Source: Caldalkalibacillus uzonensis (GTDB lineage Bacteria > Bacillota > Bacilli > Caldalkalibacillales > Caldalkalibacillaceae). Taken from it: a stretch of DNA of 64,000 nt. Each line of letters opens with the position of its first letter. The stretch's first letter is position 1. A model generated the notes under the pieces. The model had not been told where the DNA came from. It made no database searches and was given only the letters and a program-made list of their open reading frames with translations. This document shows positions 14,284 to 28,589 of the stretch, in pieces. Where the stretch lies: positions 1-64,000 of the forward strand of contig NZ_JAUSUQ010000016.1 of assembly GCF_030814135.1 (NCBI RefSeq). Reading direction: 5' to 3'. The translations under genes and the position numbers were made by a program.

Positions 14284-14556
14284 GTTTGCTGTGCTAGACG
14301 GGGAGGTAGCGGTGCCCTGTAACCCGCAATCCGCTATAGCGGGGTCGATGCCTATCTGAGGTTTGCACTATGTGAGGTCTGGCTCATGTACGCGGTGTTG
14401 ACGAAAGGGTCCTATGCAACGGAAGCCCATGAACCCCGTCAGGTCCGGAAGGAAGCAGCGGTAAGTGGGTATCTCCGTGTGTTGTAGGGTAGCCTTTTCC
14501 GAGCTGGCGGCATGAGTACGCTTGGGTAGTGCTTATCGAGGATAGGTGCACAGCAG
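14284..14556 (+). ncRNA. scr: Signal recognition particle RNA (large Bacillus type, scRNA)
   Basis: RNA scaffold of the SRP that binds Ffh and targets nascent membrane and secreted proteins. The SRP domain helix 8 core is read as GTCAGGTCCGGAAGGAAGCAGC, with the tetraloop GGAA and the flanking internal loops. The Alu domain start (GCTAGACGGGGAGGTAGCGGT) shows that it is the large Gram-positive type of about 270 nt. The ends pair as TTGCTGTGC / GCACAGCAG. Ends are estimated from the B. subtilis RNA and may shift by a few bases. Confidence 0.95.
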
Positions 14557-14562
14557 TTAACA

Positions 14563-14590
14563 AACACCTGCAAATAAGGTGTTTTTTCTT
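14563..14590 (+). terminator. SRP RNA terminator
   Basis: AACACCT / AGGTGTT hairpin followed by TTTTTTCTTTTTTT. Confidence 0.85.
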
Positions 14591-14699
14591 TTTTTAGAGG
14601 TAGCGTTTGGCCAAAATGAGGTTAATCGCTTTTTTATCAAGCTAAAGTTTTGTATAATCAAAAAACAAAGGAATACTGTGAATAAACAGTTAGATTGAG

Positions 14700-14780
14700 T
14701 GAAGGGCAAAGCTACGGAAACGTAGTGACGCAAAGCTACAGGGGCTAAGGTTATACCAACTAAGCCAGCCAGCTGCCGTT
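14700..14780 (+). promoter_or_regulatory. Cyclic di-GMP-I (GEMM-I) riboswitch aptamer
   Basis: The leader matches the GEMM-I consensus. P1 GGCA / TGCC closes the aptamer. The next stem is CTACG-GAAA-CGTAG with a GNRA tetraloop. It is followed by the nearly invariant GACGCAAAGC, then the GGGGCTAAGG arm and the tetraloop-receptor arm ending AGCCAGCCAGCTGCC. An extended promoter-like TATAAT lies at 14653-14658 with a weak -35. Downstream, CCGTTTA (14776-14782) can pair with TAAACGG (14797-14803), competing with the terminator that follows. Ligand binding holds TGCC in P1, so I infer that c-di-GMP favours termination (an OFF switch). Confidence 0.9.
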
Positions 14781-14785
14781 TAGGG

Positions 14786-14814
14786 AACATATCCTTTAAA
14801 CGGATATGTTTTTT
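14786..14814 (+). terminator. expression-platform terminator of the c-di-GMP riboswitch
   Basis: AACATATCC / GGATATGTT with a 7-nt loop and a run of six T. The loop and the base of the 3' arm are the partner of the antiterminator strand. Confidence 0.88.
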
Positions 14815-15017
14815 GTTTAGCCTAGCCCTTAGCGCCATGTCGAATTTTATGGTATCAGGGAGGATTTTAACCAATTAAACAAGAAGTAAATAGATTGATA
14901 ATATACATATAATGGTTGACATCGGCCTGTCTAGGTTTTGCCCGTTATGCTATGTTAAATATTACTTATATTTCAGGGCTGGCCAACGGTGAGACCATCG
15001 TAAAGGTAGGGGTTCAG

Positions 15018-16100
15018 ATGACGTCAAGCTCACATGGATTACCTTCTATTCTTCACGCCCTTTTTTCCGAACAGATCTTTAACAATGCTCACATTGGACT
15101 CATACTACTTAATGAACAGGGCCATATTGTCTCTATCACCAAAGCCGCCGCTAAAATAATGGGAGATGATCCCGAAGTTTTTATTGGTCAAAACATTTTC
15201 CATCTTTTTAAAAATATACCTGAAGGCCGGCAATTAATCTCCAAACGGGTCTTTGAGGGCGTGACGATTCGGAATCAGGCCATGACATGGCATAATGGCC
15301 AGTGTTACTATGAAATTCTGGTGGACAGTTTTCCGCTCATTGATGAGGCCGGCCACCAACAAGGTGCGTACATATTTATCAAAGATGTGACAAATTTGCG
15401 CTCTTTAGAAAATCAAATCCATCGCAACGAACGGCTGGCCATGATCGGACAAATGGCAGCAGGCACAGCCCATGAAATTCGCAATCCCTTAACCAGTATC
15501 CGCGGTTTTTTACAAATATTAAACAAGACTTTGAAGGAACGCAACATGATGCGGGAAGTTGAATATACCAACATCATGTTGGATGAAATTGACCGGATCA
15601 ATCATCTGGTGGGCGAGTTTTTGTTACTGAGCAAATCACGGGAGACCCGCTACGAAAAAATCGATCTGGCCCTGCTGATGAAACAGTTTTTACCTATTAT
15701 TCAAAATGAGGCTTTATTACACGGTATAGAAGTTCAAACCAAAGATTTTGACAATCTTCCGCCCATTGTGGGTGATAAGGAGCTGTTAAAACAAGTATTT
15801 CTCAATATTTGTAAAAATGCCATTGAAGCAATGGGCAACCAGGGGCGGTTGACTCTCTCCCATCACTTCTTACCAGAAGAACAAATGATCAGTATCAATA
15901 TTAAGGATACAGGTCCAGGTATACCACCTTATGTGATTGATAAAATTTTTGAGCCGTTCTTTACGACCAAGGAGGAAGGGACGGGTTTAGGCCTTTCTGT
16001 TTGTCAGCGGATTATCCATGATATGGGGGGCAAAATACGGGTTTCATCCAAGGGCTATGGCACCACGTTTCATATTTGTATTCCGTATTTGGATGTCTGA
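15018..16100 (+). CDS. PAS-domain sensor histidine kinase (phosphorelay/sporulation kinase type)
   Basis: Soluble histidine kinase of 360 residues. A PAS domain covers about residues 15-125. The dimerisation and phosphoacceptor motif is TAHEIRNPLTSIRGF with His152. The ATPase domain has the N box NICKNAIEAM, the G1 box DTGPGIP, the F box FEPFFTTK and the G2 box GTGLGLS. No transmembrane helix is seen, as in KinA and KinE of B. subtilis. No response regulator gene is adjacent, which fits a kinase feeding Spo0F, but this is inference. The ATG has AAGGTAGGGG 5 nt upstream. An in-frame TTG 34 codons earlier lacks a site. The gene lies behind a c-di-GMP riboswitch and a 200-nt leader. Confidence 0.9.
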   Translation: MTSSSHGLPSILHALFSEQIFNNAHIGLILLNEQGHIVSITKAAAKIMGDDPEVFIGQNIFHLFKNIPEGRQLISKRVFEGVTIRNQAMTWHNGQCYYEILVDSFPLIDEAGHQQGAYIFIKDVTNLRSLENQIHRNERLAMIGQMAAGTAHEIRNPLTSIRGFLQILNKTLKERNMMREVEYTNIMLDEIDRINHLVGEFLLLSKSRETRYEKIDLALLMKQFLPIIQNEALLHGIEVQTKDFDNLPPIVGDKELLKQVFLNICKNAIEAMGNQGRLTLSHHFLPEEQMISINIKDTGPGIPPYVIDKIFEPFFTTKEEGTGLGLSVCQRIIHDMGGKIRVSSKGYGTTFHICIPYLDV

Positions 16101-16213: not shown

Positions 16214-17953
16214 ATGACGTACCAAGCGTTGTACCGAGTCTGGCGGCCCCAAACATTTGACGATGTGGTCGGACAAGCCCATATTATCCAAACGCTTAAA
16301 AACGCGCTTTCAAATCAGACGTATACGCACGCTTACCTGTTTACAGGTCCCCGAGGGACTGGGAAAACAAGTACAGCCAAGATTATGGCTAAAGCGGTCA
16401 ACTGTGAACAGGCCCCTACGGATAATCCTTGTAATCAGTGTGCCGCTTGTCGCGGTATTACCCAGGGAACGGTCGTCGATGTGGTTGAAATCGATGCTGC
16501 ATCCAACAATGGAGTGGATGAGATCAGGGACCTGCGAGATAAGGTGAAATATGCCCCTACTGAAGTCCGGTTAAAAGTGTATATCATAGATGAAGTGCAT
16601 ATGTTAAGCCAAGGGGCTTTTAACGCTTTGCTGAAAACCCTTGAAGAACCTCCTGCTCATGTCATGTTTATTTTGGCCACCACTGAACCGCATAAGATTC
16701 CGCTCACGATCATGTCCCGCTGTCAGCGTTTTGACTTTAAGCGCATCTCCCAGAAAGAAATGTTGGAACGTCTGCACATCATTTGTGCCGAAGAAGGCTT
16801 CCAGGTAGAGCAGGAAGCACTGGAGCTCTTAACCCAGGTGGCAGAAGGAGGTATGCGCGATTGCTTAAGCTTGCTTGATCAGGCTGTTTCTTTTGCTGAT
16901 GGCGAGGTGACGGTCGCCGATGTGGAGACCATTACCGGCTCAGTGGCTCAGGAAGCTTTAATGGACTTGGCTGATTGCCTCATGCGACAGGAAACGGAGG
17001 AGGCGATCAAACGCTTGGGTCTCTTGCTTGATGAGGGGAAAGAACCGACCCGTATTGTAGAGGATTTGATCTATTTTTATCGTGACGTACTCTTGTACCG
17101 GCAGGCACCCGGGCTGGCTGAGGGTTTTCAGCGTTTACGGCTGACGGAACGGTTGAAGGAACAGATCCAAGCCTATCGGGATGAACACCTTTTTCAAGCT
17201 ATTGAACGGCTCAGTCGGGCCCAGCAGGACATGAAATGGACACACCATCCGCGGATATTCTTGGAAGTGGCCTTGATCCAGTTGACCCATCACCTGGATG
17301 AATCTCTGCCGGAGCCAGCTGCTGGTGCCCACTCCCCTAGAGCGAGCGAAGAAATTGAGCAACTCAAGATGAGAGTGGATACCCTGGAGAAGGCCCTGAA
17401 GCGTTTGGGTCAGCAGGGGGGAGTGACGGCTGTAGGAAGACAAGAGGAGAGTGTGTCCAGGGCGGGCAGCAGAAGCCCCTCCTCGAGCGGTTCGTCTTTG
17501 CCCCTGGCCAAGCTGAAAGAGGTACTGAAAACAGCCAGCAAACCCATGCTGAAACAGTTGCTGGAGAAGTGGCCGGCCATTTTGGAAGAGGTTAAGCAGA
17601 AGCAAATTATGGTCCATGCCTGGCTGCGGGATGGTGAACCGGTGGCCTCTGGCCCTAGCTTTTTCTTACTAGCCTTCAAGAGTTCCATTCACCGGGAGAC
17701 AACGGAAAAAGAAAGTCACCGCCAGCTGATTGAACAGGTTGTTCAGCAGTACTTGCAAACAGAGGCGCAAATGGTCACAATCATGTATAATGAATGGGAA
17801 GATCTTAAGCAGCAATTTATAGCAGAACATAAGGAGAAGAAGGCAGAAGGCCGGGAGGAAGAGAAACAAGATCCGTTTTACAGAGAAGCGGTCCGTCTGG
17901 TGGGTGAAGAACTGGTTGAAGTGGTTGATGGCCACCCCGGTAAGAATGAATAA
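16214..17953 (+). CDS. dnaX: DNA polymerase III subunits gamma/tau
   Basis: Clamp-loader ATPase that assembles the beta clamp and links polymerase to helicase. It has Walker A GPRGTGKT (residues 45-52), the zinc module with cysteines near 64, 73, 76 and 79, the DEVH-type Walker B (IDEVHML) and the sensor region FILATTEPHKIP. At 579 residues it is close to Bacillus tau. The C-terminal third is less conserved and rich in Lys, Gln and Glu. No in-frame slippery heptamer for a gamma frameshift was seen. GGAGAGG precedes the ATG. It begins the dnaX-ebfC-recR operon. Confidence 0.97.
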   Translation: MTYQALYRVWRPQTFDDVVGQAHIIQTLKNALSNQTYTHAYLFTGPRGTGKTSTAKIMAKAVNCEQAPTDNPCNQCAACRGITQGTVVDVVEIDAASNNGVDEIRDLRDKVKYAPTEVRLKVYIIDEVHMLSQGAFNALLKTLEEPPAHVMFILATTEPHKIPLTIMSRCQRFDFKRISQKEMLERLHIICAEEGFQVEQEALELLTQVAEGGMRDCLSLLDQAVSFADGEVTVADVETITGSVAQEALMDLADCLMRQETEEAIKRLGLLLDEGKEPTRIVEDLIYFYRDVLLYRQAPGLAEGFQRLRLTERLKEQIQAYRDEHLFQAIERLSRAQQDMKWTHHPRIFLEVALIQLTHHLDESLPEPAAGAHSPRASEEIEQLKMRVDTLEKALKRLGQQGGVTAVGRQEESVSRAGSRSPSSSGSSLPLAKLKEVLKTASKPMLKQLLEKWPAILEEVKQKQIMVHAWLRDGEPVASGPSFFLLAFKSSIHRETTEKESHRQLIEQVVQQYLQTEAQMVTIMYNEWEDLKQQFIAEHKEKKAEGREEEKQDPFYREAVRLVGEELVEVVDGHPGKNE

Positions 17954-28279: not shown

Positions 28280-28589
28280 GGAAACGACATAGCAGACTGG
28301 TATTATTTTGCAAGTGAATCATGTTGGTCTCAATGAACAGATGAGTACATGCCAGCCATTTATCACAGAGAGCCGGGGGAGCTGAAAACCGGTATAAATG
28401 GGGCATGGAAGATGGTCTGGGAGAGCTAATATCCGAGGGTTGAGTGTTGTGGATGAAGTCCTGAGGGTGTTACGTTGCCCCGCGTTAAGGGGACAGTCCT
28501 AGACTGGCTGAGCCTGCTTTTGCGAGAAAGCAGGGAAAAAGGGTGGTACCGCGGGTGACTCCCGTCCCTTTGGGGATGGGGGTTTTTTA
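28280..28589 (+). promoter_or_regulatory. T-box riboswitch leader of metS
   Basis: The leader senses uncharged tRNA-Met. It carries the conserved T-box AGGGTGGTACCGCG (28540-28553) that pairs with the tRNA acceptor end. This is followed by a terminator with arms ACTCCCGTCCC / GGGATGGGGGT and six T. Upstream the stem I region contains an ATG (28341-28343) that is a candidate Met specifier codon. A stem like AGAGAGCCGG...ACCGG is also present. Uncharged tRNA would stabilise the antiterminator and raise metS expression. Confidence 0.93.

Follow-up and report, generated by a model that had tools for sequence, protein, structure and literature searches.

A predicted OFF c-di-GMP-I riboswitch before a putative phosphorelay histidine kinase gene, with a candidate sigma-H-type promoter beyond its terminator

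We found that the leader of a PAS histidine kinase gene in Caldalkalibacillus uzonensis carries a c-di-GMP-I aptamer and, after it, an intrinsic terminator with an antiterminator that competes with it. The reading we favour on balance is that this is an OFF switch placed before a phosphorelay kinase, with a sigma-H-type promoter lying beyond the terminator. This candidate promoter, conserved between terminator and gene, is the main correction to an earlier sequence-only reading of the same DNA. The source genome (class Bacilli) measures 3.88 Mb, and the window, that is, the whole stretch of DNA analysed, is 64,000 nucleotides long. The features needed below are these:

14289-14553, plus strand: scr, the large SRP RNA, a conserved neighbour upstream of the kinase (RF01854, 214.4 bits)
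14653-14658, plus strand: TATAAT, the probable -10 box of the P1 promoter, at which the switch transcript would start, read from the sequence and conserved in the sister species
14695-14780, plus strand: c-di-GMP-I (GEMM-I) aptamer (RF01051, 77.3 bits)
14776-14803, plus strand: antiterminator hairpin, 14776-14785 with 14794-14803 (-10.2 kcal/mol alone; two-sided changes across six platforms)
14783-14815, plus strand: intrinsic terminator, stem about 14784-14794/14802-14812, U tract 14809-14814 (-11.8 kcal/mol; kept in the sister species)
14859-14888, plus strand: candidate sigma-H-type promoter, GGAGGATTT-N12-CAAGAAGTA, 3' of the terminator (block shared with the sister species; score 11.0/12.7)
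15018-16100, plus strand: orphan soluble PAS histidine kinase with specificity residues TSGFQI, 360 aa from the ATG at 15018 (Pfam PAS, HisKA, HATPase_c)
16214-17953, plus strand: dnaX, downstream neighbour of the kinase (open reading frame, named from sequence and place)

Between 13673 and 19492 the order is tadA, scr, the leader, the kinase gene, dnaX, an ebfC/yaaK-like gene (likewise named from sequence and place), recR and bofA. A terminator-like hairpin (14562-14584) ends scr. The gap between the switch terminator and the kinase was searched for another target and held, besides an in-frame TTG extension of the kinase frame, only open reading frames of 21 and 26 aa, which we rejected as alternative targets. 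Elsewhere in the window lies a T-box leader (28324-28572, 107.3 bits).

The match to RF01051 is complete (model positions 1-87, E 1.9e-13), and its 77.3 bits compare with a gathering score of 35; the leader element is almost certainly a c-di-GMP-I aptamer, as the sequence-only reading had claimed. The GAAA tetraloop and the GACGCAAAGC core that it named are both present. The P1 helix that it built from GGCA and TGCC is ruled out by the Rfam family structure, in which G14706-C14707 pair with G14730-C14731 and U14774 pairs with A14734. In the Vc2 aptamer the ligand is contacted by G20, A47 and C92 (PMC4744006). Mapped through the Rfam pairing, the equivalents here are G14705, A14732 and C14776, and the base next to the last of these, C14777, belongs to P1.

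The antiterminator core joins CCGTTTA (14776-14782) to TAAACGG (14797-14803), and its 3' strand, 14794-14803, includes the terminator loop together with the start of the terminator's 3' arm. The stretch from aptamer through terminator folds better than 195 of 200 shuffles, and both of the competing hairpins announced by the earlier reading are real. That reading had further proposed an overlap of two P1 bases between aptamer and antiterminator; the overlap exists and is larger, running from the C92 equivalent C14776, where the antiterminator starts, through the P1 base C14777 into the bases that follow. Because the antiterminator uses C14776 and C14777, it cannot coexist with the bound aptamer. 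Ligand binding and antitermination are thus mutually exclusive, which predicts an OFF switch, the direction suggested before; from this overlap and from two-sided changes in related platforms we regard that direction as very likely. Folding of ligand-free RNAs ending at 14803-14808 favoured antiterminator ensembles over the aptamer with closed P1 by 7 to 10.5 kcal/mol, and once the terminator was complete the terminator and antiterminator came within 1.5 kcal/mol of each other. These energies contain neither tertiary contacts nor ligand and so show only that the outcome could be chosen kinetically.

In a second species of the genus, the leader of the same kinase is near-identical from aptamer through terminator and diverged on either side, which makes a chance origin of the switch very unlikely. 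The aptamer of this leader is the closest to ours (86% identity), followed by one in genome G004 (79%) and, within the source genome, by two whose next genes encode a LuxR-type regulator (79%) and an EAL phosphodiesterase (77%). In all four, and in the EAL switch of the second species, the CCGTTTA strand recurs and its antiterminator partner lies inside the terminator. At least eight of the ten antiterminator pairs are kept in each of the six platforms (that of the window and the five related ones), and at position 8 the pair is variously A-U, U-A or G-U, changes that affect both sides. The antiterminator of the second species has one inner mismatch and is weaker than that of the window.

Besides the kinase switch, the source genome contains four other c-di-GMP-I switches, two of which share the CCGTTTA platform. 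L009 (G000:C17:49756-49839), whose aptamer and platform are almost those of the kinase switch, precedes a gene for a 104-aa LuxR-type HTH protein; the kinase switch was perhaps copied from another switch of the same genome, to judge by such similarity. L006 (G000:C10:44756-44842) stands before a PAS-EAL phosphodiesterase gene and L007 (G000:C28:782-870) before a chemoreceptor gene, and c-di-GMP may therefore feed back on its own breakdown in this organism. The fifth switch, L008 (G000:C11:93463-93546), is followed by short open reading frames only.

Among 132 c-di-GMP-I switches in 42 Bacilli genomes, a histidine kinase gene directly follows only here and at the sister-species orthologue; the next genes elsewhere include those for chemoreceptors, EAL or HD-GYP proteins and secreted proteins. 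We rejected G017:C108 as a second independent case of a switch before a kinase, since switch and kinase are parted there by a further terminator and by a small open reading frame that has a ribosome site of its own, and a DegS-like kinase in G050, which lies 440 bases from its switch. The G004 genome carries ten c-di-GMP-I aptamers, and L155 (G004:C78:18907-19123) is a tandem pair before a gene for a secreted transglutaminase-like protein. In three Bacilli families a c-di-GMP-I aptamer directly precedes a small SinI-like open reading frame and then a SinR-like gene: L146 (G003:C22:39469-39552), where the Pfam SinI threshold is reached, and L188 (G017:C20:13811-13896) and L258 (G055:C8:353991-354077), assigned by sequence likeness. 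These aptamers would tie c-di-GMP to the SinI/SinR biofilm switch.

The gene after the leader encodes a PAS histidine kinase, as had been read. Its N-terminal PAS domain matches PF00989, PF13426 and PF08448 above cut-off, and its sequence has no evident membrane segment. We found no receiver-domain match on the contig (C16) and no two-component partner gene near the kinase. The best NCBIfam matches, AtoS and ZraS, are far below their cut-offs. Sporulation kinases directed at Spo0F have few definitive features; their signature is to be orphan, to contain PAS and to carry six specificity residues like those of KinA-KinE, which in KinC are TSGFQI (PMC6136694 and its Table 1). The kinase of the window is orphan, has a PAS domain and carries exactly the KinC residues, which lends support to its earlier description as phosphorelay-type. 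Among the other HisKA proteins read in the source genome, those with HELRTP-type boxes carry different residue sets; another three or four kinases are phosphorelay-like as well.

Searched family by family, the source genome was found to encode Spo0F (between the pyrG and fba genes) and Spo0A, both named from sequence, a SPOB_a (Spo0B-type) protein and SigH (373.6 bits, cut-off 294.8). As for the ligand machinery, GGDEF gave four clear matches and one weak further match, and EAL gave four. It is quite likely, judging from the signature above, that the kinase phosphorylates Spo0F, and we infer from this a link between the switch and entry into sporulation.

Many Bacilli have an orthologue of the kinase (148 of 399 genomes of the class match at E <= 1e-62), and at 60 of 70 loci searched the SRP RNA lies just upstream. 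No riboswitch was seen at the kinase in 69 of the 70 loci, a few of which end early upstream, in a genome collection that omits near relatives of the source; only the species of the same genus has it. As the pair of switch and kinase recurs in this second species but not at the 69 other loci, the switch was apparently added to an old conserved kinase within this lineage. In most of the best 30 orthologues the open frame extends for 254-280 or more residues ahead of the histidine box. The window kinase has about 142 there, counted from its ATG, which suggests that an N-terminal PAS region was lost in the genus. A search of the leader for remnants of that domain gave no meaningful match.

The -35 box of the P1 promoter is weak, and this promoter is absent from the list of our consensus promoter scan. 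Between terminator and kinase, a second block is common to both species of the genus and reads GGAGGAWTT-N12-CAMGAAGTA. The sigma-H consensus is RnAGGAwWW-N11-12-RnnGAATww; against it, the site at 14859-14888 has a perfect -35 box and an imperfect -10 box, which is off at two positions and reads GAAG for GAAT. Of 60 orthologue spacers, 37 contain a sigma-H-type site with a score of at least 10.9, compared with a mean of 4.1 in shuffles and none on the reverse strand, and 18 contain one with a score of at least 11.9, compared with 0.2 when shuffled; these spacers come from loci that lack the riboswitch and are related, hence not independent sequences. The perfect or near-perfect sites come from many families. 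This enrichment suggests that the ancestral state was probably a kinase driven by sigma-H, and such an ancestry would support a role of the kinase in the sporulation network. Since the candidate promoter lies downstream of the terminator, the switch probably gates only transcripts from the upstream promoter and not all kinase synthesis. The earlier claim that the c-di-GMP level sets the amount of kinase would accordingly hold for the share made from the upstream promoter and fail for the total.

We therefore picture the following sequence of events in conditional terms. RNA polymerase would start at the upstream promoter, whose -10 box is near 14653. At low c-di-GMP the aptamer's 3' strand, from C14776 on, would pair with 14794-14803, preventing the terminator from forming, and the kinase gene would be read through. 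When c-di-GMP is high, the ligand would hold C14776 and P1 would hold C14777, the antiterminator would be blocked and transcription would stop at about 14815. The kinase would most likely phosphorylate Spo0F. In stationary phase, the sigma-H-type promoter at 14859-14888 would supply kinase whatever the c-di-GMP level, and low c-di-GMP would be coupled to extra kinase besides this sigma-H route. More tentatively, and with our confidence falling a little short of even, we suggest that the same kinase is repressed by c-di-GMP during growth and independent of it in stationary phase, so that an RNA switch directly gates entry into the sporulation phosphorelay with a sigma-H bypass.

The switch might be intact but of minor importance, with the kinase made almost wholly from the sigma-H-type promoter, as in relatives, and the upstream RNA contributing little. 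The enrichment of such sites before the kinase across Bacilli, the conservation of the block in both species of the genus and the poor agreement of the upstream promoter with consensus would all fit. However, aptamer, antiterminator and terminator stayed near-identical in the two species while the remaining leader diverged, which points to selection on the switch, and the -10 box of the sigma-H-type site in the window has decayed from consensus; we consider a minor role unlikely. It is also rather unlikely, if marginally easier to entertain, that the switch works and the kinase serves a receiver other than Spo0F, for example in motility or metabolism. With AtoS and ZraS as its best, distant NCBIfam matches the protein resembles a generic kinase, and the scarcity of definitive features in sporulation kinases (PMC6136694) leaves room for this. 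Nevertheless, no partner regulator is nearby, a PAS domain is present, the specificity residues are identical to those of KinC and sigma-H-type promoters precede the gene in many families, all of which speak for the phosphorelay.

An ON switch, in which the ligand favours read-through, for instance by way of another pairing in the long leader, appears quite improbable. Class I aptamers exist as both ON and OFF switches, to go by a title cited in PMC11218506, but here the antiterminator takes C14776 and C14777 from the bound aptamer, whereas the terminator is compatible with a closed one. Most improbable of all is a hybrid cyclic dinucleotide as the ligand in place of c-di-GMP. The hybrid-sensing variants of c-di-GMP-I aptamers have an A at the G20 position, which in the window is a G (G14705), and the source genome encodes GGDEF and EAL proteins. 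Hybrid-sensing members do exist in Geobacter (PMC6456294). Our preferred reading is still an OFF switch for c-di-GMP before a kinase that would feed Spo0F.

If a riboswitch controls a phosphorelay kinase, c-di-GMP would have a simple way of reaching Spo0A in a sporeformer, and the case would exemplify how an old conserved gene can acquire a riboswitch that changes its input. In B. subtilis a threshold for sporulation is reported to be set by how much KinA is present (a result attributed to Eswaramoorthy et al. 2010, cited in PMC12826061), which makes control of kinase amount a plausible lever. The riboswitch class is known; the combination of a kinase target with a sigma-H bypass is, as far as we checked, new. 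We found no paper joining a c-di-GMP riboswitch to a sporulation kinase, in a search that covered subscription journals thinly and is weak evidence of novelty.

In aptamer sequence and structure, ligand-contact residues and terminator/antiterminator platform, the element resembles other RF01051 switches that act through an intrinsic terminator; from the other c-di-GMP-I switches among the 132, its orthologue apart, it differs in lying directly before a histidine kinase gene. The kinase is like B. subtilis KinA-KinE, and KinC above all, in being orphan, in its PAS domain and in its specificity residues. The kinA gene of B. subtilis has a sigma-H promoter, and the candidate sigma-H-type promoter before the gene here would be a further likeness. 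Unlike KinA-KinE, the window kinase has a riboswitch in its leader, a single PAS domain and a fixed place between scr and dnaX. The Bc1 switch of the Bacillus cereus group likewise has a class I aptamer and a long leader, and intrinsic termination again precedes the gene, but it has two terminators and other target genes, and in B. thuringiensis it was found locked OFF in vivo regardless of c-di-GMP (PMC11218506), a precedent that would counsel caution about an in vivo ligand response here. In Clostridioides difficile, c-di-GMP represses sporulation by a pathway that is unknown, and no riboswitch appeared to affect sporulation genes (PMC8653836). High c-di-GMP would lower the initiation of sporulation in our organism as well, but here we propose a direct RNA route to the kinase.
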